A DNA stretch of 15,863 bases, taken from the NCBI GenBank assembly GCA_029932675.1, contig JAOZPP010000018.1, positions 27,249 to 43,111 on the forward strand. The letters are read 5' to 3'. This document shows, one piece after another, positions 1-15,863 of the stretch. The notes beneath the pieces are model-generated. The model saw nothing but the letters and a program-made list of their open reading frames with translations, did no database searches and was not told where the DNA came from. Positions within the stretch are counted from its first letter, which is position 1, and every line of letters starts with the position of its first letter. A program made the translations under genes and the position numbers. Origin of the DNA: a bacterium. Its GTDB lineage: Bacteria > SM23-81 > DAOVCL01.

Positions 1-652
1 CCGCTACTTGATTGGAGGATGCAGGTGTAACCGTATAATAGCTGATGGCCGCCGGAACAGTGGTGACCGTAAAGGTGACCGTATCGGCAGGGGAAGCCAT
101 AACCGCCTCCACCTGGTTGGTGCTGTCCGTAGAGGTAGAGGTAGTTAGGGTGCTGGTGGCCCTCCCATCTGTGCCACTTAAGACCGGTGAGGGGCTTACA
201 CTGCCTCCCCCCCTGGTTACAGTGAAGGAGATACTCTTGTTGTCTACCTTGTTCCCATAACTGTCCTGGACCTCCACTACCAACTCCTGGTCAGCCCCGG
301 CCACCACCGTGGAGGAGTTGCCGCTTATATAGACCAGATTGGATGCCGGGGCATGATCCACTGTTATGGTGCTACTTGTCCCGGTCTTGTTGTTGCCATC
401 TGTGGCCGTGAGGGTGAGCTGCTCGGCCACCGTGTCGGTGACCGTGAATGTGGCTACCCCCGAGGATAAGGTGAGAGGATTGGTAGCATAGCTGACCCCT
501 GTCCCAGTGCTGCTCATGGTCACCGAGGTGCTGTTGTCGGTGGTCACCAAGTTGTTGTTCACATCATAAGCCCTTACCTCTACCCCAAAACTTGTCCCCG
601 CTACTTGATTGGAGGATGCAGGTGTAACCGTATAATAGCTGATGGCCGCCGG
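1..652 (-). repeat. Tandem 597-bp (199-residue) coding repeat, start of second copy
   Basis: Positions 1-55 are identical to positions 598-652, in the same frame of the Ig-like repeat gene. The offset of 597 bp is exactly 199 codons, so the repeat unit is a pair of Ig-like domains. Only 55 bp of the next copy is inside the window and all 55 bases match, which suggests recent duplication or homogenisation. Confidence 0.85.
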
Positions 653-1201: not shown

Positions 1202-1207
1202 TACGCC

Positions 1208-1735
1208 TTAATCTGAGGACTTTCTGAAGGCTCGATCAGTGAATTTGAAGGAAACCTCTCTTCTTCCCTCCTCATAGGTCCGTAAGGTAAACTCAAATGG
1301 ACCTTGGCCATAGAGGCCATGAGCTGAGAAGGTGATCTTGATCTCTTCTCGGGGTGTTTTTTGAGAGGAAGTCCTTATGGTGAGTAGGCCTAGATCAGGA
1401 TCAAAATCCCAGGTGGTATATCCTTCCTCTTGAGGAGGATTTTTTGATTTCCTTACCCAAAAGCGATCTTTACCCTGCATGAATCCCAGTAATATAAGCT
1501 TCTTACAACAAGAGGGGGAGGATGAAATTTCGAAAGTATTTTGATGACCTCCATCCAGGGAGAAGGTAAAATCAAAAGTTTGTGTTTTCTTATTTGGTCC
1601 TATGATTTGTGGTGAAATGCCCACTTTGGAGGATTTTGCAAACCCAGAGGTAACTGGAATAAAGGAAAGGAAAATACACAAAGCCGCGGTAGTAACAATA
1701 TATGGCCAACTCTTTGTCTGATCTTTGATAGACAT
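1208..1735 (-). CDS. Small secreted protein of unknown family, first gene of the Ig-repeat operon
   Basis: This 175-residue protein has an N-terminal hydrophobic segment (about residues 12-33, ending SGFAKS) that looks like a signal peptide or anchor. The rest is rich in beta-type patterns (TFDFTFSLDGG, IKITFSAHGLYG, REVSFKFTDRAF) and includes a Cys-Cys pair in SPSCCKK. I do not recognise the family. ATG at 1735 is preceded by a good ribosome site (GGGAGA, about 5 nt away). The stop lies 6 nt before the Ig-like repeat gene, so the two are very likely co-transcribed. It could be a partner, chaperone or small surface subunit of the repeat protein, but that is inference from position only. A sigma-54 element and a possible sigma-70 element lie upstream. 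Confidence 0.75.
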   Translation of the reverse strand: MSIKDQTKSWPYIVTTAALCIFLSFIPVTSGFAKSSKVGISPQIIGPNKKTQTFDFTFSLDGGHQNTFEISSSPSCCKKLILLGFMQGKDRFWVRKSKNPPQEEGYTTWDFDPDLGLLTIRTSSQKTPREEIKITFSAHGLYGQGPFEFTLRTYEEGRREVSFKFTDRAFRKSSD

Positions 1736-1782: not shown

Positions 1783-1811
1783 AAATTAACATATCCTCAG
1801 GATGTTGTCAA
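1783..1811 (-). promoter_or_regulatory. Possible sigma-70 promoter with an 11-bp palindrome in its spacer
   Basis: On the minus strand a perfect -35 hexamer TTGACA (1806-1811) is followed after 17 nt by TAATTT (1783-1788), itself preceded by TGT as in extended -10 elements. The spacer contains the palindrome ATCCTCAGGAT (1793-1803), which could be an operator. The start site would fall about 40 nt before the ATG at 1735. The -10 match is modest, so this is tentative. Confidence 0.35.
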
Positions 1812-1883: not shown

Positions 1884-1899
1884 GCAAAAAATGTGCCAA
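1884..1899 (-). promoter_or_regulatory. Sigma-54 (-24/-12) promoter for the 1735 operon
   Basis: The minus strand reads TTGGCACATTTTTTGC, with exactly 10 nt between the invariant GG and GC. It fits the sigma-54 consensus TGGCAC-N5-TTGC completely. Transcription would begin near 1872, giving a leader of about 137 nt before the small secreted protein. The leader contains a 12-codon reading frame (ATG near 1832, MREKKKFDLTTS) behind a GGAGA site, of unknown meaning. Confidence 0.8.
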
Positions 1900-2163
1900 T
1901 TTTTGTTCAGAAAGATCTTCTTGCTCCCTAAAATATCCATTGGTGGAATGGGAGGGTTTAGGGGGAGGGAACTGAGTCCTCAGATAGGGCCGGTAGGAGG
2001 TTTGCGGCAAATCCTTGGCTTTCGCTCTCCATCTTATGCTATTCACCCAAGAGGCAATTAGTTGATAGAACCTCATTATTAACGGCTTAGGTATTCACCC
2101 TTTAAGGGAGACAATATTTATCTCTGCTTCCTTGATTCCCTGGGGTTCCGTAATTCAGGCCTT

Positions 2164-2201
2164 ATAAAAAAAGAGGGAGAAGATCTAAATCTTCTCCCTC
2201 T
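2164..2201 (-). terminator. Intrinsic terminator of the PEP-CTERM gene at 2231-2974
   Basis: A perfect 13-bp inverted repeat (arms 2172-2184 and 2189-2201, loop CTAA) lies 29 nt after the stop codon. On the minus strand it is followed by a T-run (TTTTTTTATAA), the classic Rho-independent layout. Confidence 0.9.
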
Positions 2202-2230
2202 AAGAAATAGGCTAATGTTTTTGCAAGTTT

Positions 2231-2974
2231 TTATCTTTTTCGTCTCCATCCGCGCATCCGGCGCAGAAAACCGAGTCCTAAGAGGCCGGAACCCATCAGG
2301 ATTAAGGTGCTGGGTTCAGGCACTGGGGCTACACCAGTAAGATCGCCTGCGTCATTCCCACACTGCATCGTCCAGTGGATATGATATGGGCCAAGCTCAT
2401 TAGTGAGCTGTGATCTGGCGATCTTGGCCTCAATGGCGTAACGTCCATCGAAACTACCATAGCTGAATTCAGCGATGGTTTGGGAATTATCATATGCAGA
2501 AACCCTCCAAGGGTCTGAAACTCCTCCCCAACGGATTTGGGTTAGTTGCCAATTGAGGTTACCGGAAAGCAAATTTCCATTGTTGTCCACATCGATTCCG
2601 TATTCATATTTGCCATCACAGTTAAGGTCTATGGCGATGTCACCTGGGAGATAATAATCGTTGTTCCAAGCTCTACCTCCAAGAGGGAAACCAGTTACTA
2701 CAGCAAAATAGGCATAGGAGTTATCCAAACCATAGTACATTGCCTCTACATCGTAAGCATCTCCGCCCCATCCAGGTCCAACCTGACCATTTGAGGAACC
2801 CACATAGTCCTCCACATAATAGTTGATGTAATCAAGCTCTTTAGCATTGGCATCTACATCCCAGTTACCATAGCTGACCCCCCAAGAGCCCAAAAACAAT
2901 GTTGCCTGGAGGGGTGTCGATCCCAGTGAGGCCAATCCTATGATGAGCAATAGAATAAATATCATCCTTTTCAT
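2231..2974 (-). CDS. PEP-CTERM sorting-domain protein
   Basis: I place the start at the ATG at 2974 (247 residues, beginning MKRMIFILLLIIG), because it has a strong ribosome site (AAAGGGG) and a clean signal peptide of about 24 residues ending in LQA. The longer frame up to 3052 would start inside the sigma-54 -24 element. The C-terminus (residues 218-247) is a textbook PEP-CTERM signal: VPEPST, a hydrophobic helix with LLGLGFL, then a basic tail ending RRKR. In this system an exosortase recognises and processes the tail while the protein is sent to the cell surface or extracellular matrix. The mature part is rich in Tyr, Trp, Asp, Asn and Gly, with an Asp/Asn stretch (DLNCDGKYEYGIDVDNNGN) that could bind calcium. 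The exact domain family is not recognised. The gene is monocistronic, with its own promoter and terminator. Confidence 0.92.
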   Translation of the reverse strand: MKRMIFILLLIIGLASLGSTPLQATLFLGSWGVSYGNWDVDANAKELDYINYYVEDYVGSSNGQVGPGWGGDAYDVEAMYYGLDNSYAYFAVVTGFPLGGRAWNNDYYLPGDIAIDLNCDGKYEYGIDVDNNGNLLSGNLNWQLTQIRWGGVSDPWRVSAYDNSQTIAEFSYGSFDGRYAIEAKIARSQLTNELGPYHIHWTMQCGNDAGDLTGVAPVPEPSTLILMGSGLLGLGFLRRMRGWRRKR

Positions 2975-3036
2975 TGTTTTCCCCTTTCTTTTTTGCGAAT
3001 TGTAAGGAAACTGCTGATCTTCACTTTTTATATAAT

Positions 3037-3052
3037 GCAAAATGTATGCCAA
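3037..3052 (-). promoter_or_regulatory. Sigma-54 (-24/-12) promoter for the PEP-CTERM gene at 2974
   Basis: The minus strand reads TTGGCATACATTTTGC, with 10 nt between GG and GC. It differs from the consensus only in the final base of TGGCAC. Transcription would start near 3025, about 50 nt before the ATG. An inverted repeat AAGGTC-N11-GACCTT lies upstream at about 3174-3196 and could be an activator site, though that is unproven. Confidence 0.78.
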
Positions 3053-3266
3053 GATGGTTAGAAGTCACAAGTCATTAAACTGTCATAGGTTACAAAGGTG
3101 GTTCTAAGTCTCATTGTGAGGGAGGTCCAGAAAGTTGTTAAAAGAAACGACAGTAAATGGTTTTCTGAACTTTAAGGTCAAGTCTCTATGGACCTTAGAG
3201 ATGTAATAAGCGATGACAGCTTCATTAGGTTTTTCCTCACTATTTTTATCCAACGAATCATTCCCC

Positions 3267-3298
3267 TCTAACAAAAAAGGGGCAATTAGCCCCTTTTT
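3267..3298 (-). terminator. Intrinsic terminator of the PEP-CTERM gene at 3325-3957
   Basis: A perfect 10-bp stem (AAAAAGGGGC at 3274-3283 with GCCCCTTTTT at 3289-3298, 5-nt loop AATTA) lies 26 nt after the stop. The minus strand continues the T-run (TTTTTTGTTAG). The A/T-rich arms would also allow it to work on the plus strand. Confidence 0.88.
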
Positions 3299-3324
3299 GT
3301 CATCTCAATGGCTGTATTCTCTAT

Positions 3325-3957
3325 TTACCTTCTCTTCCTGCGAAATCTACTATAAGCAGTTACTCCCACCAAGCCTGTTCCTAGCAGAAAGAGAGTGCTT
3401 GGTTCAGGAACTGGTGCTAAATCTTCGGTAGTTTCAACTCTTAGGTCATCAATTCCAATTGCCCCACCACCGAGGCCATCAGTAAAAGCCAAGGTATAAA
3501 CGGGTCTGTCGAAATAATAAGTGGCCCTTCCTGATCGCCAAAAGTGGCAAGGTTCGTGGAAGAAGAGAAGGTCGAGGTCTTCAATCGACCGGGGGAGCTG
3601 TTGATCAAAATCAGCCCAAGCTTGTATGGCATTAAATCTTACTCCCCAATCGAATGTAACAGACCTTATAGGCGTATCCCGAAAGGAGATATAAAACCAG
3701 TGAGGTCCAATAGAGGGGATATTTCGGATATATCGGTCACCAAAATAGTCATGTAAGGGTGTCAACACACCTACGAAGGCATTTCTGACCTCTATATCAG
3801 AGCCGTAAATTCCCTCCATATAGTTCTCAATCCCCTGGGGACCTTCCCACCAGTTGAGGGCGTTAAAATCAAAAAGAATTGAAGCTTTAACATTTTTGGT
3901 CGGGGAGAAAAACACAATAAGGATGCCCCCCAAAAGGAGTACTCTAAGAACTCGCAT
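3325..3957 (-). CDS. PEP-CTERM sorting-domain protein
   Basis: This 210-residue protein has a signal peptide (residues 1 to about 25, MRVLRVLLLGGILIVFF..., ending VKAS). Its C-terminal PEP-CTERM signal (residues 183-210) has VPEPST, a hydrophobic segment FLLGTGLVGVTAY and a basic tail ending RRKRR. Exosortase-dependent sorting to the surface is therefore expected. The body has beta-sandwich-like features (SVTFDWGVRF, GIDDLRVE), as in other PEP-CTERM proteins with lectin-like folds, but I cannot name a domain. The start ATG at 3957 has a GAGG site 6 nt upstream. It is a single-gene unit: its promoter lies 42 nt upstream and a terminator follows the stop. Sequence similarity to the neighbouring PEP-CTERM protein seems limited to the sorting tail. 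Confidence 0.9.
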   Translation of the reverse strand: MRVLRVLLLGGILIVFFSPTKNVKASILFDFNALNWWEGPQGIENYMEGIYGSDIEVRNAFVGVLTPLHDYFGDRYIRNIPSIGPHWFYISFRDTPIRSVTFDWGVRFNAIQAWADFDQQLPRSIEDLDLLFFHEPCHFWRSGRATYYFDRPVYTLAFTDGLGGGAIGIDDLRVETTEDLAPVPEPSTLFLLGTGLVGVTAYSRFRRKRR

Positions 3958-3998
3958 ATTTGCCTCATGTATTTAAGAGGGTTGAAAAAATTAATACC

Positions 3999-4014
3999 GC
4001 AAAAACTGTGCCAA
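3999..4014 (-). promoter_or_regulatory. Sigma-54 (-24/-12) promoter for the PEP-CTERM gene at 3957
   Basis: The minus strand reads TTGGCACAGTTTTTGC, a full match to TGGCAC-N5-TTGC with 10 nt between GG and GC. The predicted start is near 3987, about 30 nt before the ATG. Upstream, CACTGGACAGTG (4180-4191) is a 12-bp near-palindrome and TTTATCGATAAA (4200-4211) is a perfect palindrome. Either could be a regulator site. Confidence 0.85.
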
Positions 4015-4227
4015 TCTGAAGATCTAATGGTTTCGTCCTCTCCATCTGCTTGAAATATAAGTGATAACAAATAAAACTTTTCTTGTAACGTTCTTTTCAC
4101 AATAGCTAAAATTCTGGAAAATGTATATTCTTCCGACGATCTGGTAAATACAAGGAAGTTAACTTGTTGTAAATCAAACCACTGGACAGTGTAAACTTTT
4201 TTATCGATAAACTCAAATATGGTTATC

Positions 4228-4698
4228 TCATCCCAGCAGAAGGTAGGAGTTGATGAATTTTAGAAGATTTTGTTTTCCGTTGCCCGCTTCTGGATAGGAT
4301 ATTACCATTGTTTTTATCCTTCCTTTTTCATCCCCAGCCTTCAAGGGGAGCAAGGGGAGAATGCCTTCCTCAAGCTTCGCGGCTAAGTATTCTGCACCTT
4401 CCTTCGAGGTGCCAGCTAAGATCAAGGCCAATTTCCCATGGCCTAGGGGACAGACGAAATCGGTTTCCCTTATACTTTCCTTTATCCTTTCTCCTATTCT
4501 GAAGGTCATCTTTGCCCTCTCCTTTTGGGATAGGGGATATCTTTCCATCAAGGAGGAGAAATCGATAATTACAAGGGAAAGATACTCGCAATATCTCTCA
4601 GACCTCTTTATCTCCTGGCCAAGGATCCTCTTAAATTCAGTGTAACTCAAGAGGGGAGAATCATAGGCGAAAAGTTCCAATTCTACTCCTTTCGACAC
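4228..4698 (-). CDS. Degenerate GGDEF-domain protein, last gene of the prsK-prsR operon
   Basis: The 156-residue protein has the outline of a GGDEF (diguanylate cyclase) domain: an opening helix with LLSYTEFKRILGQEIKRSER, a strand LSLVIIDFSSL that keeps the metal-site Asp (D46), and a hairpin DFVCPLGHGKLALIL where YGGDEFAIIL would be expected. The signature is therefore GHGKL instead of GGDEF: both acidic catalytic residues are gone, so c-di-GMP synthesis is unlikely. It may bind a nucleotide, dimerise, or act as a partner of PrsK or PrsR. It begins 25 nt after prsR and is probably in the same transcript. The start at 4698 is GTG with a weak ribosome site. An in-frame TTG at 4680 has a much better one (AAAGGAG, 6 nt), giving 150 residues and fitting the domain equally well. 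Confidence 0.8.
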   Translation of the reverse strand: MSKGVELELFAYDSPLLSYTEFKRILGQEIKRSERYCEYLSLVIIDFSSLMERYPLSQKERAKMTFRIGERIKESIRETDFVCPLGHGKLALILAGTSKEGAEYLAAKLEEGILPLLPLKAGDEKGRIKTMVISYPEAGNGKQNLLKFINSYLLLG

Positions 4699-4723
4699 AA
4701 TTTGTCTTTACCATTGGGAGCCC

Positions 4724-6103
4724 TCAAATCCTTCCTCCTTTATGTGATTTTCCTCTCTTCTCTATCCCATATTTTGCCATCAGGTCATAGAGGGAGGGAC
4801 GACTAATCCCCAATTCTGCCGCCGCCTTAGAGATGTTCCATCGGTTAGCCGCCAGGGCCTCTCTGATGAAGTCTTCTTCCACCTTCTCCTTAGCCTCTCT
4901 AAGGGAGAGGTCCCCTAACCTCGGTTTGTGTTTAAGGTCCAGGTCCTCTGCTTGAATCACATTTCCATCGGTCATTATGATTGCTCTCTTTACCTTGTTT
5001 TCCAGCTCCCGCACATTGCCTGGCCAGCGGTACTCCATCATCCCTCTGATTGCCTCTGGGCTAAAACCTCTGATCTTTTTCCCATAATCCTTACTAAAGT
5101 GAGCGAGGAAAGATTTGGCCAAAAGGATGATATCATCACCCCTTTCTCGGAGGGGGGGGAGGGAAACCGAAATGACTCCCAACCTATAATAAAGGTCCTG
5201 ACGAAAATTACCTTTCTCCATCTCCTGTTCCAAATTTTTGTTCGAAGCGGCAATTACTCTAACATCCAACTGGATGGGAACATTTCCTCCCACCCTTTCT
5301 ATCTCCCTCTCCTGAAGGACTCGTAAGAGCTTAACCTGGAGGTTAGGGGTGAGTTCCCCGATCTCATCCAAGAATACAGTTCCTCCATTGGCTATTTCGA
5401 ACTTGCCCTTCCTCTGAGCGTGGGCCCCGGTGAAGGAACCCTTTTCATGGCCAAATAGTTCGCTCTCTAAGAGATTCTCCGGTATGGCTCCACAATTTAT
5501 GGTAACAAATGGTTTTTCTCTGCGAGGGCTGCGATAATGGATTGCTCTGGCCACCAATTCCTTCCCTGTGCCGCTCTCTCCGTATATAAGGGCGGTAGCA
5601 TCGGTAGCAGAGATCCTTTCGATTATTTCATAAACCTCAAGCATCTGTGGGCAACTGCCAATAAGGTCCTCAAATCTTTTTTCCTCTTCCAATCTATGGA
5701 AAAGGGCCTCATTTTCCCTCTCCAATTTTTGCACATAGAGGGCTCTTCTGATAATTACCTTTAGCTCATCAAAATCTATTGGCTTTTGAAAATAGTCATG
5801 GGCCCCCAATCCAATTGCCTTTAGCGCAAGTTCCTTACCTTCTTTCCCAGTGATCATTATTACCTTTAATTTTGGATCGAACTTCATCATATCCTTCAGA
5901 AGTTCCATTCCCTCCTCATCCCCCGAAGAAGGGGAGAGGCCGATATCAAGTAGGACCAAATCGGGCTCCTTCTTTGAGACCTTTTCCTTTGCCTCGGTGG
6001 AATCGGCAGCCAATAGAACCTCATAGTCCTCGGAAAGTGCCCATTTTAACTGCTCTCTAATCCCCTCATCGTCATCAACTATCAGAATGAGGTCCTTAAT
6101 CAT
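4724..6103 (-). CDS. prsR: PrsR-type sigma-54-dependent response regulator
   Basis: This is an NtrC-family activator of 459 residues. A receiver domain (1 to about 120) has the acidic triad DDD at 10-12, phospho-acceptor D53, T85 and K107. The AAA+ domain (about 145-385) has Walker A GESGTGKE (175-182), the sigma-54-contacting loop GSFTGA (222-227, a variant of GAFTGA) and Walker [11 protein letters not shown] (241-250). A Fis-type helix-turn-helix follows (about 418-442, [20 protein letters not shown]). Phosphorylated by its kinase, it should open sigma-54 promoters. I chose the ATG at 6103 over the 6196 upstream extension because it starts the receiver fold directly, has a GGGAGG site and overlaps the prsK end by 8 nt, indicating translational coupling. 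Length and the kinase partner fit the PEP-CTERM-associated PrsR family. Its likely targets are the four sigma-54 promoters in this window. Confidence 0.93.
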
Positions 6104-8180
6104 CTCTTCCCTCCCAAGTGCTAAGCTCAATGGTGAATGCTGTCCCTTTCCCTTCCTCGCTTTCCACCTCGATCTTACCTCCATGAGCTTCCACAATTTC
6201 TTTGCTTTGGTATAGACCTAAGCCCAATCCCTCCTCTTTACTGGTTTGAAATGGTTTAAAGAGGGAATTCTTAATAAAGCTTTCGCTCATCCCTATTCCA
6301 GTGTCTGAAATCCTAAGCTTTGCCCTCCTTCCCGTAGGTGATTTTGAAGTGTAGAACTTCAGCTTTCCTCCTTTGGGCATTGCTTCCATCCCATTTAGAA
6401 CGAGATTTAGGATGACCTTTTCTAAGAGCTCTCGATCCCCCTTGACTAAGGGAATACCATTTAGATGCTTCTCAACTTCTATTCCCTTTCTCCCCTCTGG
6501 TTTTAGTTTGGTCAATGTCTCCTCAACCAAGGAGTTCAAATCCACTGGCTCTTCATTAATCCTCATACCTTGAGGGACGGTTCTCAATTTGCCAATAAGG
6601 GAGTTCATCCTCTCTACAGCCGAAGCTACTGTTGTAAGCATGCTCTTCTGAAACTCCTCATTTTGAAGATGCTTGTTTGCGTTCTTTACCAGAAGGGAGA
6701 GGGTAGAGACGGAATTCTTTAGATCGTGGATGATGAAGGAGGATAGCTTATGGAAGGATTCTAACTGTTTGTGGGCTATTAGATTCTGATTTAACTTAGC
6801 GTTCAAGATGGCCATTGCTGAGTGGTCTCCAATGGTCTCCAATATCTCCATATCCTCCTGGGAATAACCTCCTTCCTTTTTTCCCAAACTCAATAGGGCC
6901 ACCAATTCTCTTTTACTGATCAAGGGAACAAGGACCTTGGTACCCAACTTCTGGAAACTTTCCCTTACCTCCTTATAGGGGCCTTCTATTTGCCGAACAT
7001 CAATTGGTTTCCCATATCTCCAGATCCAATCGGAGAATTTATGGTCTTGCGGTATCTTCACCCTCTTCACGGAGTTTATCCTCCAGAAGAGTTCAAACCT
7101 ACCTTCGCCCTGCGGCAGGAAGATGGCTACTTCCTTTACATTGATAAGCTGAGAGATGATCTGTCCTATCGTTTGGACAAGTTCCCTTAAATCGATAATC
7201 GATGATAGCTCTTGGCTGAATCTGCTCCATTCCCGCCGATAATCATACCTCCCTCGATAGAAGTTGCGGTCCACAAATCCCTTGATCCTCTCCTTGAGGG
7301 AACTGGAAAGGAGGAGGAAGATCAGTGCCACTATAAAGGCAAAGGAGGCTAAAATGGAGGTGTAAACCTTTATATCTCCGTTCAGAGTTCCCATTAGTTT
7401 TCCAACAATTCCAGCTCCTACCAAATAGACGCCCACAATGAACAGCAACACAGAGGAATAGACGAACTGTCTTCCTACATAGATCTTGGTCTGCAAGGTC
7501 TTCCGCTTAAGCGAAAAGTAGAGGAATCCCAGACCATTAAGGAAGACCAATAGGGAGGCGATAAGCATGGAACTGAAGCTGATTCTGGAATAGAGGATCA
7601 TCTCTGAGGAAGCCCAGATCAGGAAGAGAAAACCCATCATCAGGGCTAAAAGGGGAACGACCATTCTCCCTTGGGAATCTGGGGTAAGGGACCTGAAAGT
7701 ATTTTCTAAATTGACCAGAACCACCACAGAGGAGAGAAGCAGGAAGATGAGAAAGGATTTGCCTATCCCACCAAAGAGGAAAAGGAGGCCTCCCCCTGGA
7801 GTGTAAACCAAGGAGAGAAATCTCTCTGAGAAGGAGAAGACCAGAAAAAAACAACCGGTCAGATAAAGTAGCCCAATATACCATCCCCATCTCCTCAAAT
7901 ATTGACCATACTCCTGGCGAGCAAAACATAAGGAGAAAAGGGTCCAATGGCCAGGTAGAAAACAGAGCCCCACAAGGGAGAGCCTGGAGAAGAAAAGCAT
8001 CTCCTTAGGCTCGAAGGTGGAGAAGACCAGGGTTGAGCAGATCTCTATCCAGAAGATGGAGAGGGAACCAAAGAGAAATGAACGACCCAGAGTTCCCTTT
8101 GGCCCTTTAAACCACACGAGTAACCCCACACTACCGGCTACCAATGCAGAAAGCAATGAGAGGGGGAGATAGAGGTTCAT
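6096..8180 (-). CDS. prsK: PrsK-type membrane sensor histidine kinase of PEP-CTERM systems
   Basis: This protein has 694 residues. The N-terminal 300 residues contain about nine or ten membrane helices. A GAF-like domain follows (about 325-465, ending DHSAMAILNAKLNQNL), then the phospho-acceptor box SFIIHDLKNS with H485, and an ATPase domain with N-box ILNLVLNGMEAM (590-601), G1 DTGIGM (626-631) and G2 GLGLGL (651-656). The order multi-helix membrane region, GAF, HisKA, HATPase matches the PrsK family, which occurs in genomes with PEP-CTERM sorting. It should autophosphorylate in response to an unknown envelope or membrane signal and pass phosphate to PrsR D53. Its ATG overlaps the stop of the TPR lipoprotein gene (ATGA), and its own end overlaps prsR, so the three are translationally coupled. 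Confidence 0.93.
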   Translation of the reverse strand: MNLYLPLSLLSALVAGSVGLLVWFKGPKGTLGRSFLFGSLSIFWIEICSTLVFSTFEPKEMLFFSRLSLVGLCFLPGHWTLFSLCFARQEYGQYLRRWGWYIGLLYLTGCFFLVFSFSERFLSLVYTPGGGLLFLFGGIGKSFLIFLLLSSVVVLVNLENTFRSLTPDSQGRMVVPLLALMMGFLFLIWASSEMILYSRISFSSMLIASLLVFLNGLGFLYFSLKRKTLQTKIYVGRQFVYSSVLLFIVGVYLVGAGIVGKLMGTLNGDIKVYTSILASFAFIVALIFLLLSSSLKERIKGFVDRNFYRGRYDYRREWSRFSQELSSIIDLRELVQTIGQIISQLINVKEVAIFLPQGEGRFELFWRINSVKRVKIPQDHKFSDWIWRYGKPIDVRQIEGPYKEVRESFQKLGTKVLVPLISKRELVALLSLGKKEGGYSQEDMEILETIGDHSAMAILNAKLNQNLIAHKQLESFHKLSSFIIHDLKNSVSTLSLLVKNANKHLQNEEFQKSMLTTVASAVERMNSLIGKLRTVPQGMRINEEPVDLNSLVEETLTKLKPEGRKGIEVEKHLNGIPLVKGDRELLEKVILNLVLNGMEAMPKGGKLKFYTSKSPTGRRAKLRISDTGIGMSESFIKNSLFKPFQTSKEEGLGLGLYQSKEIVEAHGGKIEVESEEGKGTAFTIELSTWEGRDD

Positions 8181-9637
8181 TTCAAATCCTCCATCTTCTT
8201 TTTCACCTTTTCCTTAAGGGGATGATTTGGGAAGCGTCGGAGGAATTCTTTGTAGACCTTTAAGGCGCCTGATTTATCCTGAAGCTTGGTTTCATAGACC
8301 ATCCCCAAAAGAAGGTAACCATTGATCATAGGTCGGGAGGGGGGGAAATCCCTGATCAGGGACCATAAGGAAGAGATTGCTTCCCTCCATCTCTTTTGAT
8401 GGAGGTAACACTGAGCTATCTTTTCTTGTGCATAGGCGGCATAAAGTGACTTGGGTGAATCCTCCACCATTCCCTGGTAGGTCTTCACTGCTCTTTTATA
8501 TTCCTGCTTGGCAAGGTTCTCAATCCCCGCTTGGGAGTAGTGGTCAGCCAAGTAGAGGGGAATCCGGAGAGCAGCTTGGGTATGAGGGTATTTATCCAAT
8601 ACCCATCGATATTCGTTCAGGGCCTGATCCCACTTACCCTCCGTTTCGTAGCTTGCCCCTATGCCAAATTGGGCCTCTGCAGAGGAATTCACATCCTTGG
8701 GGAATTTTTTTATTACCTCTTGGAAAGCCTTTCTTGCTTGGGCTGGGAGGCCCTTTTTCAGATAGAGCCTACCGATAGAAAGCTCAGCCCTTCCTCCCAG
8801 AGGGTCCTCAGGATAGTTGTCCAATATTTGCTGATAGGTCCTTAAGGCTTGATCGGTCAAATTGAGCTTTTCGGAATAGATATCACCGGCGGCAAATAGT
8901 ATTTGGGGGAGAAGGGGGCTTTGAGGGTATTTTTTAACTATCCCTTCCAACGCATTCACCGCCTCCCTCCATTTCCCTTGGTCGGCATAGGAGATGGCAA
9001 TTTGATTTTGAGCCAAAAGGGCAAGGGGAGTTTGGGGCCAGCGGTTCACTATTCCTTGATATAACTCCCTAGCCCAACTATATTCATTTGCCGCCCCTTT
9101 TCCCAGTCTGCGATATAGTCTAGGGATCTGGAGAGGAGTGGGTAGAAGTTCCTGCGCCAGCTTATTTTGGGGGGGAGATGAGAGATAACTTTCCGCCAGG
9201 GTCCTGTACTCCTCGATTGCCTTATGTAGATCCCCCATCCCCTCATAAGTTTGAGCAAGGGATAGCCTCACGAAAGCTTGAAGGTCCTTATCTTGTTTGG
9301 TATCATTTAATAGCTTCTGATATTCATCGATGGTTTGCTGGTATTCCCCCTGGGCGAGATATAATTGGGCTATCTTCAACCTGGCCTTGGTGGTCAAATC
9401 CTCTAATCCCCTTCCCTTATCCTGATCCTGAAAACCTATCACCTTACGATAGGCTTCGATAGTGCGGCTATAGTCCTCCTTTTGGGCTAAATTTGGATTT
9501 ATCAGTATCCTCTGGTAGAGCTTTCCAGCTTTAAAGAATGCCTTTTCCGCTTTGTAGCGGGGAAGGATTGAACTTTCCCTTGCACACCCTACCAAGAGGC
9601 CCAGGATGAAAAGAGGCCAAAGCCATCTCCCCTTCAA
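8177..9637 (-). CDS. TPR-repeat lipoprotein
   Basis: The 486-residue protein has a lipoprotein signal peptide (FILGLLVGC, lipid-acceptor C18) followed by about ten tetratricopeptide-type helical repeats (for example QYQQTIDEYQKLL, QALRTYQQILDNYPEDPLGGRAELSIGRLYLKKG split over two repeats). It is likely an envelope scaffold, similar in style to BamD/YbgF-like TPR proteins. A longer TPR lipoprotein commonly sits beside prsK/prsR in PEP-CTERM loci; this one holds that position but is only about half as long, so I give no symbol. The start codon is TTG at 9637: no in-frame ATG is nearby, the ribosome site AAGGAGG lies just upstream, and TTGA overlaps the stop of the preceding gene. Its stop overlaps the prsK start in the same way. 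Confidence 0.87.
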   Translation of the reverse strand: MKGRWLWPLFILGLLVGCARESSILPRYKAEKAFFKAGKLYQRILINPNLAQKEDYSRTIEAYRKVIGFQDQDKGRGLEDLTTKARLKIAQLYLAQGEYQQTIDEYQKLLNDTKQDKDLQAFVRLSLAQTYEGMGDLHKAIEEYRTLAESYLSSPPQNKLAQELLPTPLQIPRLYRRLGKGAANEYSWARELYQGIVNRWPQTPLALLAQNQIAISYADQGKWREAVNALEGIVKKYPQSPLLPQILFAAGDIYSEKLNLTDQALRTYQQILDNYPEDPLGGRAELSIGRLYLKKGLPAQARKAFQEVIKKFPKDVNSSAEAQFGIGASYETEGKWDQALNEYRWVLDKYPHTQAALRIPLYLADHYSQAGIENLAKQEYKRAVKTYQGMVEDSPKSLYAAYAQEKIAQCYLHQKRWREAISSLWSLIRDFPPSRPMINGYLLLGMVYETKLQDKSGALKVYKEFLRRFPNHPLKEKVKKKMEDLK

Positions 9638-10464
9638 CTTTCCTCCTTCACTAGTAGGTAAAATCCAGTGATCGATCCAATGAGAAAGTAGTTGGTTAAA
9701 ATAGAGAAACCGATATAGAAGGCAAGAAGCCAGCAGATTAACTCGGGGGTGAATCTGCTTATCAGGAAGCCTCCCTTACTCAGGACCCAATCTAAGGGGA
9801 GTCTAAGACCAATGGGAACAGCTACTAAGGAGAAGGAGGAGAATGGGTTCTGAGCGAAGAGGGAGAAACTTCCCCTTAATGCCCTCAACAGTCCTTTTTT
9901 CTCCCAGACTACCAAGACAGAGGTATAAGCAAAGGCTGCCCCCACAATTATCCCTAATAGGGTGGATAAGGTGCGGAGAAACTTCCCCTCAAGTGGGGTG
10001 GATACGGCTAAAAGTCGTGGAAACCCCTGTACAAACCCAAGGACTAGGGCTGTCTCCAGAATCCAAATTATAAAGAGGACCCCATAGAGGGGTAACACCT
10101 TTCTTATCCCTTCTTTTAATTGGGGGCTCTCGCCGTTAAATCTGGTAGCAAACAGTTGGGTGGCCATCCCAATTACCCCTATCCCTATTATCCCGCTGAG
10201 GAGAATGTCTACCCGATGAAACATATCCGGCAAGAAGACCATACATTGAGGATAATGGAGGGCCATAGGGCCGAAGAACCGGCGATAAAGGGGGGGTAGG
10301 ATGGAAGAGAAAGGTGGATAAGCGAAATGGATCAATCCTATTAATATCCCCCCCTGGAGAATTGCATAGATAAGGAAAGGGACGAAGAGCTTGAGGGTCT
10401 TGACCGATCTCGCCGTCTGTACCCAGGCCCAGAAGAAAAGGTTGAGTTTCTCTAAGGCTCCCAT
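9634..10464 (-). CDS. Six-helix integral membrane protein of unknown function
   Basis: This 276-residue hydrophobic protein has about six predicted membrane helices (roughly 24-46, 87-110, 125-148, 166-187, 208-226 and 243-270), with basic loops such as RRFF and WEKKGLLRALRGS. The layout resembles DUF4013-like or YihY-like polytopic proteins of unknown role, but I see no diagnostic motif and do not assign a family. It lies 8 nt after the FN3 lipoprotein gene and overlaps the TPR lipoprotein start, so it is firmly inside the operon. It could help in envelope assembly or in sensing together with PrsK; this is positional inference only. The ATG at 10464 has only a weak ribosome site, consistent with coupled translation. 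Confidence 0.78.
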   Translation of the reverse strand: MGALEKLNLFFWAWVQTARSVKTLKLFVPFLIYAILQGGILIGLIHFAYPPFSSILPPLYRRFFGPMALHYPQCMVFLPDMFHRVDILLSGIIGIGVIGMATQLFATRFNGESPQLKEGIRKVLPLYGVLFIIWILETALVLGFVQGFPRLLAVSTPLEGKFLRTLSTLLGIIVGAAFAYTSVLVVWEKKGLLRALRGSFSLFAQNPFSSFSLVAVPIGLRLPLDWVLSKGGFLISRFTPELICWLLAFYIGFSILTNYFLIGSITGFYLLVKEES

Positions 10465-10472
10465 CTGTTTGC

Positions 10473-13400
10473 CTACTTTCCTTTGCTGGGGGTTCCGCTC
10501 ACCTCGTTGCTCCCCGCCGAAAGGTCACCTTGGTCGTAGACGAAGACCCGATAGAAGTAAGTTTCTCCCATATTCAGCCTTGTATCAAGATACTCGGTTA
10601 TCTCCCTTGTATTTATGATGTAGATGGGGGCCGCATTAGTGTCCACAGGGCTAGAGGAGGAGCGGAAGATGCGATAGGTGGCAAAGTCATTGGCCTGGCT
10701 CTCCGACCAGCTCAACCTTAGGGTGATGCTGTCCTCGACCACCGGTTGCGCCAGGACCACCGGTTGGGGGGGGAGGTTCTCTAAGGTAGTTCCGCTTACC
10801 TCATTGCTTCCTGAAGCCTTATCCCCGGTGTCCACCACATAGACCCGGTAGTAGTAGGTGGTGTTCGGGGCAAGGCCCGTATCCTGGTAGGTGGTTGATG
10901 TCCTCTCCGGAAGCTGGGCAACAAGCTGCGAGCCTGAGCTCACCCCCTGGTTGGGGGAACGGTAGATTCGATAGGAGGAGAAGTCCCAGTCTGAGTTCTC
11001 GGTCCAGGAGAGGGTAAGGGAGTTTTCTGTTTGGCTCTGGGGATCTGAAAGGAAAACCGGATGGGGAGCGCTGTTGTCCGTTGTTCCGCTCACCTCGTTG
11101 CTCCCAGCCCAAAGCCCTTTCTGATCAAAAACATATATCCGATACCAGTACTCTCGGTTGTCAGTCAACCCACTATCCACCAAACTGGTGTGCGAGGGAT
11201 CTGTTATCTCCTCGATCAGCTCTGATGAGAGGTTGACCCCTGAATGGCGCGAACGGTAAACCCGATAGCTCTGGAAATCGTCCTCTTCGTTCCTACTCCA
11301 GGAGAGGCCCAGGGACGAACTGTCCAGAACGGTGACCTCCTCTAAGACCACCGCCTCTGGGGGGCTGTTCTCGGTGGTGGCCGAAACCTCATTGCTTCCC
11401 CTTCCCTTTCCTCCCTGGTCGTAGACGAAGAGGCGGTAGTAGTAGGTCTTGTTTCCAGTGAGTGCGGTGTCCTGGTAAGTGAGCTGGAACCTATCCTCTA
11501 TTGTCACCACTTGGTAAGATGCTGAATCAACTCCTGATGATGGGGAACGGAAGAGCCGGTAGGAGGCGAAGTCGTCGTCTGAGTTCTGGCTCCAGGAGAG
11601 GTCGATCCTGGTGGCCGAGACCGCATTTGGCTGATAAAGGGTAACAGGTTCAGGTGGTTCATCCGGGTTCGTCTTTCCCATCTCCTCATTGCTACGGGAG
11701 GAGTGTCCTCCCTTGTCACGTACATAGAGGCGATAGTAGTAACCCGTGTTCTCCTTTAGTCCGGTGTCCTGGTAGGCAGTAGTGGTTTGGCTGGTAATTG
11801 TGGCCACCAGGGTGGAGGTCGAATCTACCCCGGAGCTCTCTGAGCGATAGAGGTTATAGGAGGCGAAGTCCTCGTCGGAGTTCTGGCTCCAGGAGAGGTT
11901 GAGCTGGGAGAAGGAACCAACAATGGGCGAAGGGGGATAGAGGATGACTGGCTCTGGTGGTTCATCCTGGTTTGTCCTCCCCACCTCCTCGTTACTGGGG
12001 GCCCCAAGCCCTCCTCTGTCCCAAACGTAGACCCGATACCAGTAGGTGGTGTTCTCCTTTAGTCCGGTGTCCTGGTAGGCCGTAGTGGTTTGGGAGGTGA
12101 TCGTGGCCACCAGGGTGGAGGCGGAGTCTACCCCAGGGTCTTGGGAGCGATAGAGTTCGTAGGAGGCGAAGTCCTCATCTGAGTTCTGGCTCCAGCGGAG
12201 GCTGAGCTGGGAGAAGGAACCAACAATAGGCGAAGGGGGATAGAGGATGACAGGTTTGGGAGGCTCGTTTTCCTTGGTTGTGCCCTTTACCGGTTTGCTG
12301 GCCGAAGAGAGTCCACTCTGATCGAAGACATAGAGCCTATACCAGTAGTCCGTGTTCTCTTTTAGCCCTGTGTCCTCAAAAGATGTGGTATTTCTATCGG
12401 TGATAGTGGTTACCAGGCTTGAGGTAGAGTCAACCCCTGGTTCCTCTGCTCTAAAGAGCATATAGGAGGCGAAATCCTCTGCACTGGAGGGAGACCAGGA
12501 GAGGTTGAGGGAGGTGGTGGAGTTACCTACGGGGGTGGGAGATCTCAGCTCCACCGGAGGAGGGGGGCTTTGAATAGTTAGCGTCCCCTGAGTATTAACC
12601 GGGGTAGCCTGGTTTCCTGCCCGATCGGTGAAGTGGCCAACTACCCTTGCCTGCAGGACTTCCAGACCTCCAGGGATGATAAAATCCGAGGCATAAATCC
12701 CATTTGCGCTGTCCTCGAGGACTATCTCTATCTGAGCAGTTCCTATATCTATAGTGGCCTTCCCATTGGGTTCCCCAGCATCAAGCCTGAAATGAATTGT
12801 ATCCCCAGGGCTAAGCCTTTTTCCTTCCGAGTCCTCACTCACCGTTCTTATGGCTGCCTGGGTGTCTAAGGTTATCTTGTCTGAAGCTGGATTTTCTGTT
12901 TCTATTCCTTTGGAGTCCTTAAACTTAACGAATACCCGTTTCTCTCCATCTCCTTCAGTGAGCCTCCATTCCTTTTCTGGGGAGAAAGGTTCCCAGGAGC
13001 TGGCGGTAAATGTAGAGTCATTGGCTAACATCATTAAGGTTGCCCCTTGAGGGGCAGTAAGGGTGAGGGAAACGTCTTGGTGGTTGGTGAATTCCTTCCC
13101 CCCCTCGATGATGAGGTCATAAGCAGAGGGGGTGGCAGAGATCACTGGAGTAGGGTTACCTTCATAGCCCTGATTATTGTAGGCAGAAACTTTGTAAAAA
13201 TATTCCCGGTTATTTAGCAGTCCTGAATCCCTATAAGAATAAGAAGTTGAGGGGAGGGAATCCCTTTGAGTTGAATCTATTTTGGTGAATTCTCCTCTTA
13301 ATGAATCAGCCCTATAGATGTAAAAGCCTCTCACCTCCTGCTGATCGCTCCAAATCAAGGTTACCTCCCTATCTCCCACCAGTGCCAGAAGGTTCTTAGG

Positions 13401-13502
13401 AGCAGAGGGGAAACTAACCTCCGTGGGTGTAAAAGGCTGGTGTCTTTTGCTGCATCCCCCAGCTAAGAGCACAATCACCAAAAAGGGCAAGATCCTTTTC
13501 AT
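10473..13502 (-). CDS. Large lipoprotein with eight fibronectin type III domains
   Basis: The 1009-residue protein begins with a lipoprotein signal (FLVIVLLAGGC, acceptor C17), so it is membrane-anchored and exposed to the periplasm or surface. One FN3 domain (about 33-128) is followed by a region of about 185 residues with Ig-like strands and the sequence HFTDRAGNQ. Seven more FN3 domains of 90-105 residues each follow to the C-terminus, with recurring motifs such as LSWSQNSDEDFASY.LYRS, TTAYQDTGL, YYYRLYV and GSNEV. Such proteins commonly bind polysaccharide or other surface polymers, which would suit an exopolysaccharide context, but no ligand can be read from the sequence. There is no PEP-CTERM tail (it ends GTPSKGK). 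The start ATG at 13502 has a good AAGGAG site. It lies 10 nt after the PEGA-DUF5683 gene and 8 nt before the membrane protein gene. Confidence 0.9.
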   Translation of the reverse strand: MKRILPFLVIVLLAGGCSKRHQPFTPTEVSFPSAPKNLLALVGDREVTLIWSDQQEVRGFYIYRADSLRGEFTKIDSTQRDSLPSTSYSYRDSGLLNNREYFYKVSAYNNQGYEGNPTPVISATPSAYDLIIEGGKEFTNHQDVSLTLTAPQGATLMMLANDSTFTASSWEPFSPEKEWRLTEGDGEKRVFVKFKDSKGIETENPASDKITLDTQAAIRTVSEDSEGKRLSPGDTIHFRLDAGEPNGKATIDIGTAQIEIVLEDSANGIYASDFIIPGGLEVLQARVVGHFTDRAGNQATPVNTQGTLTIQSPPPPVELRSPTPVGNSTTSLNLSWSPSSAEDFASYMLFRAEEPGVDSTSSLVTTITDRNTTSFEDTGLKENTDYWYRLYVFDQSGLSSASKPVKGTTKENEPPKPVILYPPSPIVGSFSQLSLRWSQNSDEDFASYELYRSQDPGVDSASTLVATITSQTTTAYQDTGLKENTTYWYRVYVWDRGGLGAPSNEEVGRTNQDEPPEPVILYPPSPIVGSFSQLNLSWSQNSDEDFASYNLYRSESSGVDSTSTLVATITSQTTTAYQDTGLKENTGYYYRLYVRDKGGHSSRSNEEMGKTNPDEPPEPVTLYQPNAVSATRIDLSWSQNSDDDFASYRLFRSPSSGVDSASYQVVTIEDRFQLTYQDTALTGNKTYYYRLFVYDQGGKGRGSNEVSATTENSPPEAVVLEEVTVLDSSSLGLSWSRNEEDDFQSYRVYRSRHSGVNLSSELIEEITDPSHTSLVDSGLTDNREYWYRIYVFDQKGLWAGSNEVSGTTDNSAPHPVFLSDPQSQTENSLTLSWTENSDWDFSSYRIYRSPNQGVSSGSQLVAQLPERTSTTYQDTGLAPNTTYYYRVYVVDTGDKASGSNEVSGTTLENLPPQPVVLAQPVVEDSITLRLSWSESQANDFATYRIFRSSSSPVDTNAAPIYIINTREITEYLDTRLNMGETYFYRVFVYDQGDLSAGSNEVSGTPSKGK
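11622..12227 (-). repeat. Tandem pair of 303-bp FN3-encoding repeats
   Basis: Two adjacent 101-codon units (11925-12227 and 11622-11924) both begin IVGSFSQL and remain highly similar in nucleotide sequence, including GAGAAGGAACCAACAAT on the plus strand in both. The other FN3 units of the gene are much more diverged, so this pair looks like a recent internal duplication or gene conversion. Confidence 0.8.
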
Positions 13503-13512
13503 TCTCTTCTCC

Positions 13513-14238
13513 TTAGAAATTTATGGTTACTCTTAACACTGGGGTCCCTTCTTCCAGGCCCCCAGAGATGACTGGCGTTCCTAAATCATATTCCCCTTGC
13601 TGAGAGGAGGGGAAGAAAATGAGTGCGTCTAAGATGTTGTAAGCCCAAAGGGCTCCAGTCATCCAGAGGATAGTATTTCTTCGTCGGTAATTATCATTGG
13701 CCTGCTTTTCCTTGTCCCGCACCTGCAATTCAAGGGCAAGCCTCTCCTTTTCCCTTTTCGTTGTGGTGTAATCCCTTAATGCTTGATTGTAACTATCCAC
13801 TGCCCGGTCGTATTGGGCATCAATTGCTATAAAGGAGAAAGCAAGGCCGATCATCGCAAAGCTGATTGCCCCTCCCTTAAACCTCTTATCCATATACCAT
13901 TGTCCCCAACCAGGAAATAGGGTGGACCTTAAGGCTGCTTTAAGTCTGGTCTTAGGGGTAAGCCTAATCAAAAGCGGGCCACTTCTCTCTCCCACTAAGT
14001 TGACCCTTTGGAACCAGGTCTCATAACCCCTCTTGGAGGCAGTGATCTTGTAGGTGCCCACCAAAAGATAAGGAACCTTCATGGGTGTCTTACCCACAAA
14101 TGTATGTTCCCCTTCTACATACACGGTAGCCCCTGGGGGAACAGAATTTATGGTAATCCCTTTGGGTTCAGAGGCTAAGGTGGAGGAGAGGGGGAGAGAT
14201 AAAATTAGGAGGGAAGAGAAAAACAGGATCTTCCTCAT
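13513..14238 (-). CDS. PEGA-domain and DUF5683-like membrane protein
   Basis: This 241-residue protein opens with a signal peptide (1-23, ending TLAS). A PEGA domain follows (about 28-95: ITINSVPPGATVYVEGE ... GKTPMKVPYLLVGTYKITASKRGYE), a small beta fold common in surface and envelope proteins. Then comes a DUF5683-like part with LRSTLFPGWGQWYMDKRFKGG (about 103-123), a membrane helix (121-139), a charged coiled-coil-like stretch (143-185) and a second helix (188-208). The C-terminus ends VLRVTINF; a terminal Phe is typical of outer-membrane beta strands, but this is weak evidence. ATG at 14238 has a very strong ribosome site (GAGGAGGT). It appears to be the first gene of the long unit ending in prsK-prsR, since 209 nt separate it from the sugar transferase. 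Its role in the pathway is not known. Confidence 0.85.
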   Translation of the reverse strand: MRKILFFSSLLILSLPLSSTLASEPKGITINSVPPGATVYVEGEHTFVGKTPMKVPYLLVGTYKITASKRGYETWFQRVNLVGERSGPLLIRLTPKTRLKAALRSTLFPGWGQWYMDKRFKGGAISFAMIGLAFSFIAIDAQYDRAVDSYNQALRDYTTTKREKERLALELQVRDKEKQANDNYRRRNTILWMTGALWAYNILDALIFFPSSQQGEYDLGTPVISGGLEEGTPVLRVTINF

Positions 14239-14447
14239 CTGGCTTTTACCTCCTCTTTAAGGTTAAACATTCATTAAATATGGCCTTTGAGAAATAGGAC
14301 AAGTATTTACTAAACAATAGCTGTGTAAAGGTTTCTGGGGTAGGATCTCATGACCTTTTCTTATTCGTTATCCAGGCAATAGGCAAAAAGTCTGGGATTA
14401 CCGAACCATTTCCGGGGTTAGGATGACGCTCATCGCTGATTCCCTTC
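14239..14447. other. Intergenic region upstream of the seven-gene operon
   Basis: No gene and no sigma-54 element is seen. A weak sigma-70-like pair on the minus strand (TTGTCC, 16 nt, TATTTA) lies about 40-70 nt before the ATG at 14238. Short hairpins after the sugar transferase stop (GATGA-GCG-TCATC at about 14422-14434) lack a T-run, so termination there is uncertain and read-through into the operon remains possible. Confidence 0.4.
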
Positions 14448-15365
14448 TTAGTATGCTCCCTTACCAGTAATCAGAACCCCCACAGTGGAGAAGATGATCT
14501 TCAGATCTTTGATTAAGGTGCAATTATGTACATAATCGAGATCCAACTTGACTTTTCTTTTAACATCTTCTATCGAGGAATCGTATCCACATTCTATCTG
14601 CGCCGGACCAGTAAGACCTGGTTTAATGACCAATCTGGCGGGATATTCGGGGACTTTCTCCTTAAGGCTTTTCACAAAGTAGGGACGCTCTGGCCGCGGG
14701 CCAACTAGGCTCATCTCCCCTTTTAATACATTGAAAAATTGAGGGATCTCATCCATTCTTGTCTTACGCAGGAACCTTCCCACTTTGGTAATGCGTGGAT
14801 CGTTAGGTATTGCCCAGATAGGTCCGCTCTTTTTTTCCGCATCTTCCCTCATAGTGCGGAATTTATATAGATAAAAGGGGGTTCCCCAAAGGTTTTCTCT
14901 CCTTCTTTCTCCCCTTCTTCTTTCCCCTCCATTATGTACTGGATTTCTTCTTCTCTCCCTTTGCCTTCTGTTGCGCCCTATCCTCAACTGTTTATAGAAG
15001 ATGGGGCCTGGAGAGTCCAATTTTATGGCCAAGGGGACAAAGATGAAGAGGGGGAGAGAGATGATGAGACCAATTAAGGCACCGAAGATGTCAATCCCCC
15101 TCTTCATCCACTTACGGAGGGAACTTCTGATGGCTAAAGGAAACTCACTCTTCCATATCTCTTCCGGGCTTAAGATAAAGACAAAAAGCGATGAGAGGAG
15201 AAAAAGAGGGGAGAGAAGAATAGCTTTGGCTATATAACGGAACCCCTTAAAGAAAATGGTACCCTTGGATTTAAGTCCGGGGTAGAGAAAACCGGAGAAA
15301 TCCGCCTCTGCCAATAGGCTAGCCCTCCCCTCTCCGTCGAACTTAGCTAACCCGTGGCCTTTCAT
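14448..15365 (-). CDS. Exopolysaccharide sugar-phosphate transferase with an arginine-rich insertion
   Basis: This 305-residue member of the bacterial sugar transferase family (polyprenyl-phosphate sugar-1-phosphate transferase) would start repeat-unit assembly on undecaprenyl phosphate at the inner membrane. It shows KRGIDIFGALIGLIISLPLF (re-entrant membrane helix, about 88-107), DSPGPIFYKQLRIGR (117-131), YKFRTMREDAE (167-177), RKTRMDEIPQFFNVLKGEMSLVGPRPERP with the catalytic pair D205-E206, and KPGLTGPAQ (248-256). It lacks the four-helix N-terminal region of long WcaJ-type enzymes and has one extra hydrophobic segment (43-68). Between the GR and YKFRTM motifs sits an insertion (about 131-160) with ERRR, GERRRGERRR. 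The start ATG at 15365 is well supported by GGGAGGT 6 nt upstream and a sigma-54 promoter whose start site would lie about 30 nt before it. It probably serves the exopolysaccharide pathway that accompanies PEP-CTERM sorting. Confidence 0.92.
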   Translation of the reverse strand: MKGHGLAKFDGEGRASLLAEADFSGFLYPGLKSKGTIFFKGFRYIAKAILLSPLFLLSSLFVFILSPEEIWKSEFPLAIRSSLRKWMKRGIDIFGALIGLIISLPLFIFVPLAIKLDSPGPIFYKQLRIGRNRRQRERRRNPVHNGGERRRGERRRENLWGTPFYLYKFRTMREDAEKKSGPIWAIPNDPRITKVGRFLRKTRMDEIPQFFNVLKGEMSLVGPRPERPYFVKSLKEKVPEYPARLVIKPGLTGPAQIECGYDSSIEDVKRKVKLDLDYVHNCTLIKDLKIIFSTVGVLITGKGAY

Positions 15366-15407
15366 CCTTGACCTCCCTTGCGTAAAATTTCGTATTCTCT
15401 AAGAGAT

Positions 15408-15423
15408 GCAAGGTCTATGCCAG
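15408..15423 (-). promoter_or_regulatory. Sigma-54 (-24/-12) promoter for the sugar transferase gene
   Basis: The minus strand reads CTGGCATAGACCTTGC followed by A, with 10 nt between GG and GC. It differs from TGGCAC-N5-TTGCA at one base. The predicted start is near 15396, about 31 nt before the ATG at 15365, and the strong ribosome site lies between them. Confidence 0.78.
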
Positions 15424-15863
15424 ATGAAGAAGAAGAAGGGTAAAAATTGTGGTAATTAAAGGAAAAGTTAACGTGAACCGTAGAGATGAGGGAAATTCCA
15501 GTGGTGATAGGGGGTTAGGTAAGCACGTTTCTTGGAGAGGAGGAATAACAATCATTTAGGGGCAAAGCCTCCCTTCTTCCTTTATGCAATGGCCTGCATA
15601 AATTAGGTATGGTATTGCAGAAAGTCTTCAGGGCTAAGGGTTTGCTGTAAATCCCCTGCCAGGAAGTGATGGAAAATAAATGGCTCTCCCTTCTCAGGGT
15701 TGGCTGGAAATCGCTTTAAGAGCAATACGATCTCCTCACTGCTGCGGAGAGGGGAAGGGAGAACTCTTCCTGGAGGGGTGAATTCTTGGCCTCGATCCTT
15801 TGCCTGGGGTGTAGTCAGTTAAAGTTAATTTCAGGAAGTTTCCTTCGCCGTTAGGGAATCTTT
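15424..15863. other. Long upstream region of the sugar transferase, mostly non-coding
   Basis: No intact gene is seen. The sequence TCCAGTGGT (15497-15505) recurs near other sigma-54 promoters. An inverted repeat TATGCA-N6-TGCATA lies at about 15583-15600. On the minus strand, 15603-15818 is an open stretch of 72 codons without an ATG. It encodes a protein-like sequence (for example SSEEIVLLLKRFPANPEKG and LSPEDFLQYHT) that ends at TAA, and the same frame continues as FMQAIA-stop-RKKGGFAPK-stop. It may be a decayed gene end. Confidence 0.35.

Follow-up and report, generated by a model that had tools for sequence, protein, structure and literature searches.

The prsK–prsR locus and its four sigma-54 promoters

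The window, as the whole stretch of DNA analysed here is called (15,863 nt, C77:27249-43111), comes from the genome of an uncultured Zixibacteria-type bacterium (G000, the home genome; 3.03 Mb in 116 contigs) and encodes the histidine kinase PrsK, the response regulator PrsR and two PEP-CTERM proteins, together with four sigma-54 promoters. The nearest named relative is a Candidatus Zixiibacteriota metagenome genome (L086, the same as contig G001:C171), whose PrsR is 85% identical. Comparisons were made within a phylum set of four genomes (G000 to G003), in which G001 is a congener of the home genome, and genome-wide statements are based on pattern searches and family searches. The main genes and promoters are the following.

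6096..8180, minus strand: histidine kinase PrsK (TIGR02916 383 bits, cut-off 300)
4724..6196, minus strand: PrsR, NtrC-type response regulator with receiver, AAA+ and Fis-type helix-turn-helix (HTH) domains and a GSFTGA loop (TIGR02915 590 bits, cut-off 502.6)
3325..3957, minus strand: PEP-CTERM protein 2, 210 aa (TIGR02595 26.8 bits and PF07589 30.0 bits, both over cut-off)
3999..4013, minus strand: sigma-54 promoter of PEP-CTERM gene 2, TGGCACAGTTTTTGC, aligned with TGGCACAATTTTTTC in G001
2231..2974, minus strand: PEP-CTERM protein 1, 247 aa from the ATG at 2974 (TIGR02595 and PF07589 over cut-off)
3037..3051, minus strand: sigma-54 promoter of PEP-CTERM gene 1, TGGCATACATTTTGC, aligned with TGGCATTGATTTTGC in G001
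14448..15365, minus strand: sugar transferase, 305 aa, a short form of the TIGR03025/TIGR03013 type (PF02397 210 bits)
15408..15422, minus strand: sigma-54 promoter of the sugar transferase, TGGCATAGACCTTGC, kept in G001 (TGGCATATACCTTGC) and G003 (TGGCATAGACTTTGC)
2..1735, minus strand: Ig-repeat unit; a 175-aa secreted protein and the start of a very large repeat protein running past the window
1884..1898, minus strand: sigma-54 promoter of the Ig-repeat unit, TGGCACATTTTTTGC, with neither a PrsR-type box nor box B (both described below); site identical in G001

The genes prsK and prsR lie in tandem and overlap, and both products exceed the curated equivalog cut-offs, in agreement with the kinase and sigma-54 activator pair of the original prediction. 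The four 15-bp promoter cores all have the spacing GG-N10-GC; two match TGGCAC-N5-TTGC exactly and the other two have C replaced by T at the sixth base. The pattern TGGCAY-N5-TTGC occurs in the window four times, precisely at these sites, against 0.04 in dinucleotide shuffles, and in the home genome it is found at 40 places, the pattern read backward as a control at 4; at that control rate a stretch of this size would hold 0.02 sites. Significance was taken from the class with zero or one mismatch; a consensus scan with two mismatches was uninformative (10 found, 8.3 expected). A separate transcription unit stands behind each of the four sites, with start codons 41–148 nt away, and each site position is kept in at least one relative, that of the sugar transferase across families. 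In the four phylum genomes a sigma-54 site precedes 11 of the 12 PEP-CTERM genes and only 2 of 103 background open reading frames (ORFs). The home genome has a single copy of rpoN, and no sigma-54 site scoring 13 or more was found upstream of prsK/prsR. The original prediction had placed four such sites on the minus strand, each with its own unit and none before the prsK/prsR operon, and had proposed rpoN and an enrichment before PEP-CTERM genes as checks; on all these points it has been borne out. By their sequence, all four sigma-54 sites are real. The ORF listed as 2231-3052 begins at a TTG that overlaps the -12 element; translation most likely begins further on, at the ATG at 2974.

The home genome encodes about 26 sigma-54 activators, and its sigma-54 sites often lie directly downstream of some activator gene; nearness to prsR is therefore weak evidence for control by PrsR. 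About a dozen sites sit 140–290 nt 3' of such a gene (G000 contigs C9, C18, C30, C35, C46, C47, C62, C98, C102, C108, C109 and C111), several of the activators concerned being 930–1030 aa long, and an activator with a neighbouring target is a habit across this genome.

Two further genes flank the pair, and a terminator closes PEP-CTERM gene 1.

8177..9637, minus strand: TPR lipoprotein where PrsT would be expected, below the cut-off of the PrsT model (TIGR02917 55.8 bits against a cut-off of 312, for the locus protein only)
4228..4698, minus strand: GGDEF-like protein without the GGDEF motif, after prsR (PF00990 22.2 bits, cut-off 23.8)
2172..2201, minus strand: intrinsic terminator after PEP-CTERM gene 1, 13-pair stem and T run

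According to Haft et al. (2006; PMC1569441), just 4 of the 13 genomes had prsT in tandem with prsK/prsR. The order sugar transferase, PEGA, FN3, membrane protein, TPR, prsK, prsR and GGDEF-like gene is common to both families, with contig breaks in G001. Terminator prediction gave no hit in the interval from the sugar transferase to the PEGA gene heading the prsK–prsR operon; transcription from the 15408 promoter into prsK–prsR is therefore possible.

PrsR-type boxes at the PEP-CTERM promoters

Of the three PEP-CTERM genes in the home genome, the window holds two and contig C21 the third, and a 17-nt PrsR-type box (YGTCG-N9-ACA) lies upstream of the promoters of all three. A single exosortase gene is present in this genome, on C75 (TIGR02602 215 bits, over the cut-off). 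The copies in the window are given below.

4122..4138, minus strand: proximal PrsR-type box of gene 2, CGTCGGAAGAATATACA, 108 nt 5' of the -24 element; kept as TGTCGGTTGAACATACA in G001
4190..4206, minus strand: distal, weaker PrsR-type box of gene 2, CGATAAAAAAGTTTACA, 68 nt 5' of the proximal box (box scan)
3136..3152, minus strand: proximal PrsR-type box of gene 1, TGTCGTTTCTTTTAACA, 84 nt 5' of the -24 element (box search and position weight matrix, PWM)
3202..3218, minus strand: distal, weaker PrsR-type box of gene 1, TGTCATCGCTTATTACA, 66 nt 5' of the proximal box; TGTCATAGCTCATTACA at the equivalent place in G001

PEP-CTERM genes of G001, G002 and G003 are also preceded by this layout, which fits the 17-nt motif 1, ending in TTTACA, of Haft et al. 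(2006; PMC1569441); one G002 copy reads TGTCGGGATTGTTTACA. When box, 81–141 nt and sigma-54 site were searched for as a composite in the four phylum genomes, 11 matches were obtained and none in backward controls, the home matches being all three PEP-CTERM genes and a site at C75:87909. Among the 40 home sigma-54 sites, the box PWM gives 15–18 at three and 9.4 or less at the others; the promoter on C21, with its TGGTAC element, falls outside the 40. At the home PEP-CTERM genes the box stands 84–108 nt from the sigma-54 site, and 10 of 12 promoters have, 65–69 nt upstream of the first box, a second one that is often weaker. Near 67 nt the box score averages 7.3; over all distances the average is -6.1 (sd 2.3), which puts the 67-nt value 5.7 sd higher. 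Sites, boxes, conservation and their co-occurrence are observed directly.

Outside the phylum, G045 has 19 PEP-CTERM genes and a PrsR over the cut-off, and its PEP-CTERM promoters have in common a 17-nt element, TGTCGG-N8-ACA, with a second box that lies at 62–68 nt five times and otherwise at distances such as 20, 100 or 110 nt. Its PrsR has the same recognition-helix pattern (SRx[ST][LF]YD), absent from the paralogue and the PrsR-like protein compared. Independent sightings of the box core come from G045 and the 2006 motif. TTTACA alone, taken as the PrsR site, gave misleading matches and was replaced by the full 17-nt layout first seen in G045; a PWM built only on G045 gave low scores to some home boxes, with unrelated sites ranking between them, and the PWM adopted, built on the phylum, separates boxes from other sites.

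Other occurrences of the box and of the regulator model deserve mention. The C75:87909 site (C75:87909-88077; L069 11909-12078) has a sigma-54 site and two perfect boxes with a spacing of 65 nt, and the sole nearby gene (DUF5658) would begin about 18 nt past the GC. The GGDEF-like gene (4228-4698) adjoins prsR in all four phylum genomes; in G002 and G003 (L197 10605-10835 and L198 18806-19033) a tandem box pair and a sigma-54 site stand between the two genes, and there the GGDEF-like gene looks, from its upstream sequence, PrsR-controlled. In the home genus it follows prsR directly, with no intervening boxes or sigma-54 site. In G030 a protein with a generic HTH (C73:40599-41933) also exceeds the TIGR02915 cut-off, and no PEP-CTERM gene was detected in the G030 genome; TIGR02915 alone is therefore insufficient and can over-call.

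The sugar-transferase and Ig-repeat promoters

The sugar transferase falls below the cut-offs of both TIGR03025 (289.5, cut-off 295.6) and TIGR03013 (250, cut-off 393). Because its promoter is conserved in G001 and G003, the 15408 site is very probably a real one. The best PrsR-box score is 2.2 in the 441 nt upstream, none is found in G001 and a weak one (8.0) in G003. In its place stands a different element.

15585..15598, minus strand: box B palindrome, TGCAGGCCATTGCA, at which a second sigma-54 activator may bind; TGCAGGAAATTGCA in G001 and TGCAGCCCTTTGCA before the Wza/Wzc operon

An island, TTATGCAGGnnATTGCATAAA, about 160–190 nt upstream, is common to the home genome and G001. The pattern TGCA-N6-TGCA followed by a sigma-54 site has six matches in the four genomes and none in backward controls: the sugar transferase (own and G001), an operon of Wza/Wzc type on C75, a gene on C97 whose product contains an HTH, and a single PEP-CTERM gene in both G002 and G003. 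The actual reading at all six loci is TGCA-N5-TTGCA, and box B occurs at 3 of the 40 home sigma-54 sites, where shuffles give 0.064. Facing away from the Wza/Wzc operon is another operon, which encodes two kinases and an activator (the latter at C75:84544-85893). From these sequence patterns, the sugar-transferase promoter most likely belongs to the regulon of a second sigma-54 activator. The PEP-CTERM genes with box B in place of the PrsR box (L272, G002:C278, 4919; L273, G003:C70, 15137) are homologues of window PEP-CTERM gene 1, with 34–38% identity excluding the sorting tail. As gene 1 itself carries PrsR boxes, its family seems to have switched activator between sister families.

The Ig promoter also has no PrsR box (best PWM score 2.2 within 600 nt, and 2.0 in G001), and an element shared between the Ig and sugar-transferase promoters was searched for and none was found. 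G001 keeps the Ig sigma-54 site, the block just 5' of it and a sigma-70-like promoter; the block has no other occurrence in the home genome.

1783..1811, minus strand: sigma-70-like promoter, TTGACA-17-TAATTT, downstream of the Ig sigma-54 site, read from the sequence and kept in G001

The promoter scanner reported near the Ig unit only a related 9/12 match (1816-1788). The Ig-repeat gene continues as a very large protein (C77, about 14001-28500; L067), with a run of N within it in the assembly, and by its sequence the giant product appears to end in a FlgD-like tail and not in a PEP-CTERM signal.

One activator or two

The claim that PrsR controls all four units is supported for the two PEP-CTERM genes, both of which have boxes conserved in relatives, and is not supported for the sugar transferase and the Ig unit (best PWM score 2.2, against 15–18). 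With a probability of about 0.78, the window would comprise the PrsK/PrsR system and two of its targets, with the sugar transferase under a second activator and the Ig site as a conserved sigma-54 promoter. From the sequences we infer phosphorylation, PrsR binding to its boxes, looping and a binder of box B. PrsK would phosphorylate PrsR, and PrsR would bind tandem 17-nt boxes (one strong, one usually weaker, about 67 nt apart) located 73–141 nt 5' of a sigma-54 promoter. Bound PrsR may loop to the RpoN polymerase and open the promoter, and monocistronic PEP-CTERM genes (3957-3325, 2974-2231 and the third on C21) would be switched on. The second activator would bind TGCA-N5-TTGCA and drive both the 15408 promoter and the Wza/Wzc-type export operon.

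Several points weigh against this two-activator account. The box model is partly built from the sequences it describes, and the spacing of 73–141 nt goes partly beyond the 32–92 nt reported for Proteobacteria. The contig end limits the sequence 5' of 15422 to 441 nt. The C75:84544-85893 activator is most likely the box B regulator, by position only, and for the host organism the whole account is drawn from sequence. Enhancers of the NtrC-type class can act from afar (PMC4641369), and because they can act over kilobases, remote control of 1884 or 15408 by PrsR is conceivable. That PrsR governs all four units in this way, through remote or degenerate sites at the sugar-transferase and Ig promoters, is unlikely, although such long-range action is described for this class (PMC4641369) and 4 of the 40 genome sites fall within one 13.5-kb stretch around prsR (P ~7e-5). 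No PrsR-type box was found in the 441 nt upstream of the sugar-transferase promoter or the 600 nt upstream of the Ig promoter, nor at the G001/G003 orthologues (best 8.0, against 15–18), and the sugar-transferase promoter has its own conserved palindrome, common to loci without prsR.

Alternatively, PrsR might bind box B too, as a second mode of recognition that would unite both boxes in one regulon, and the box B copies before the G002 and G003 PEP-CTERM genes, whose home-genus homologues carry PrsR boxes, would fit this. However, the two boxes have little sequence in common and were never together at any promoter examined, and a Fis-type HTH usually recognises one sequence, so that this reading appears highly improbable. 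The chance is slighter still that some of the four sites are fortuitous matches or inactive promoters: a consensus match is no proof by itself, and a sigma-70-like promoter is conserved at the Ig unit as well, but four sites were found against 0.04 expected and all four positions are kept in at least one relative.

The two-activator account may be compared with systems already described. Control of PEP-CTERM genes by PrsR through sigma-54, by means of a box and a sigma-54 motif, was proposed in 2006, with motif 1 sometimes repeated (Haft et al., 2006; PMC1569441). The window resembles that system in having PrsK and PrsR by curated models, a 17-nt box compatible with the TTTACA 3' end, and this box, sometimes repeated, 5' of a -24/-12 site before monocistronic PEP-CTERM genes. 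On the other hand, the home lineage lies outside the Proteobacteria, to which the 2006 paper limited the motif, and differs in its longer box–promoter spacing, the tandem near 67 nt, the lack of PrsT by model at the locus and the presence of three PEP-CTERM genes only. In Desulfovibrio vulgaris, five predicted PEP-CTERM targets of the PrsR-type regulator DVUA0057 were enriched in DAP-chip in 2011 (PMC3333781), and its regulon has been reconstructed as six operons (PMC4641369); binding was shown there and is predicted from sequence here. A second activator of D. vulgaris, DVU0110, was predicted to share the motif, whereas the two activators here appear to use different boxes (PMC3333781; PMC4641369). 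Another example is pepA of Aquincola tertiaricarbonis, for which RpoN dependence and a mapped start with TGGCAC and CTGCTT elements have been reported (PMC9850573). It is a PEP-CTERM gene with sigma-54 elements, as here, but it precedes prsT, and the dependence demonstrated there is that on RpoN only (PMC9850573). No paper linking Zixibacteria with PEP-CTERM was found in the library searched. PrsR control of PEP-CTERM genes (proposed in 2006) and PrsR binding in Desulfovibrio (reported in 2011) had already been described; new, as far as the sequences indicate, are the Zixibacteria-type lineage, the tandem-box geometry and the two-regulator split.

With this box, promoter and regulator all present in a Zixibacteria-type lineage, the circuit is wider than the Proteobacteria-only account of 2006. 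Unlike nearness to prsR, the box allows likely PrsR targets to be told apart by sequence from other sigma-54 promoters nearby. From the second box, polymer synthesis would be expected to respond to other signals than the protein cargo does. It is an even bet that in this phylum polysaccharide assembly and PEP-CTERM cargo are split between two activators with different boxes and that one PEP-CTERM family has been rewired between sister families; if true, this would represent regulatory rewiring of a protein-sorting system.

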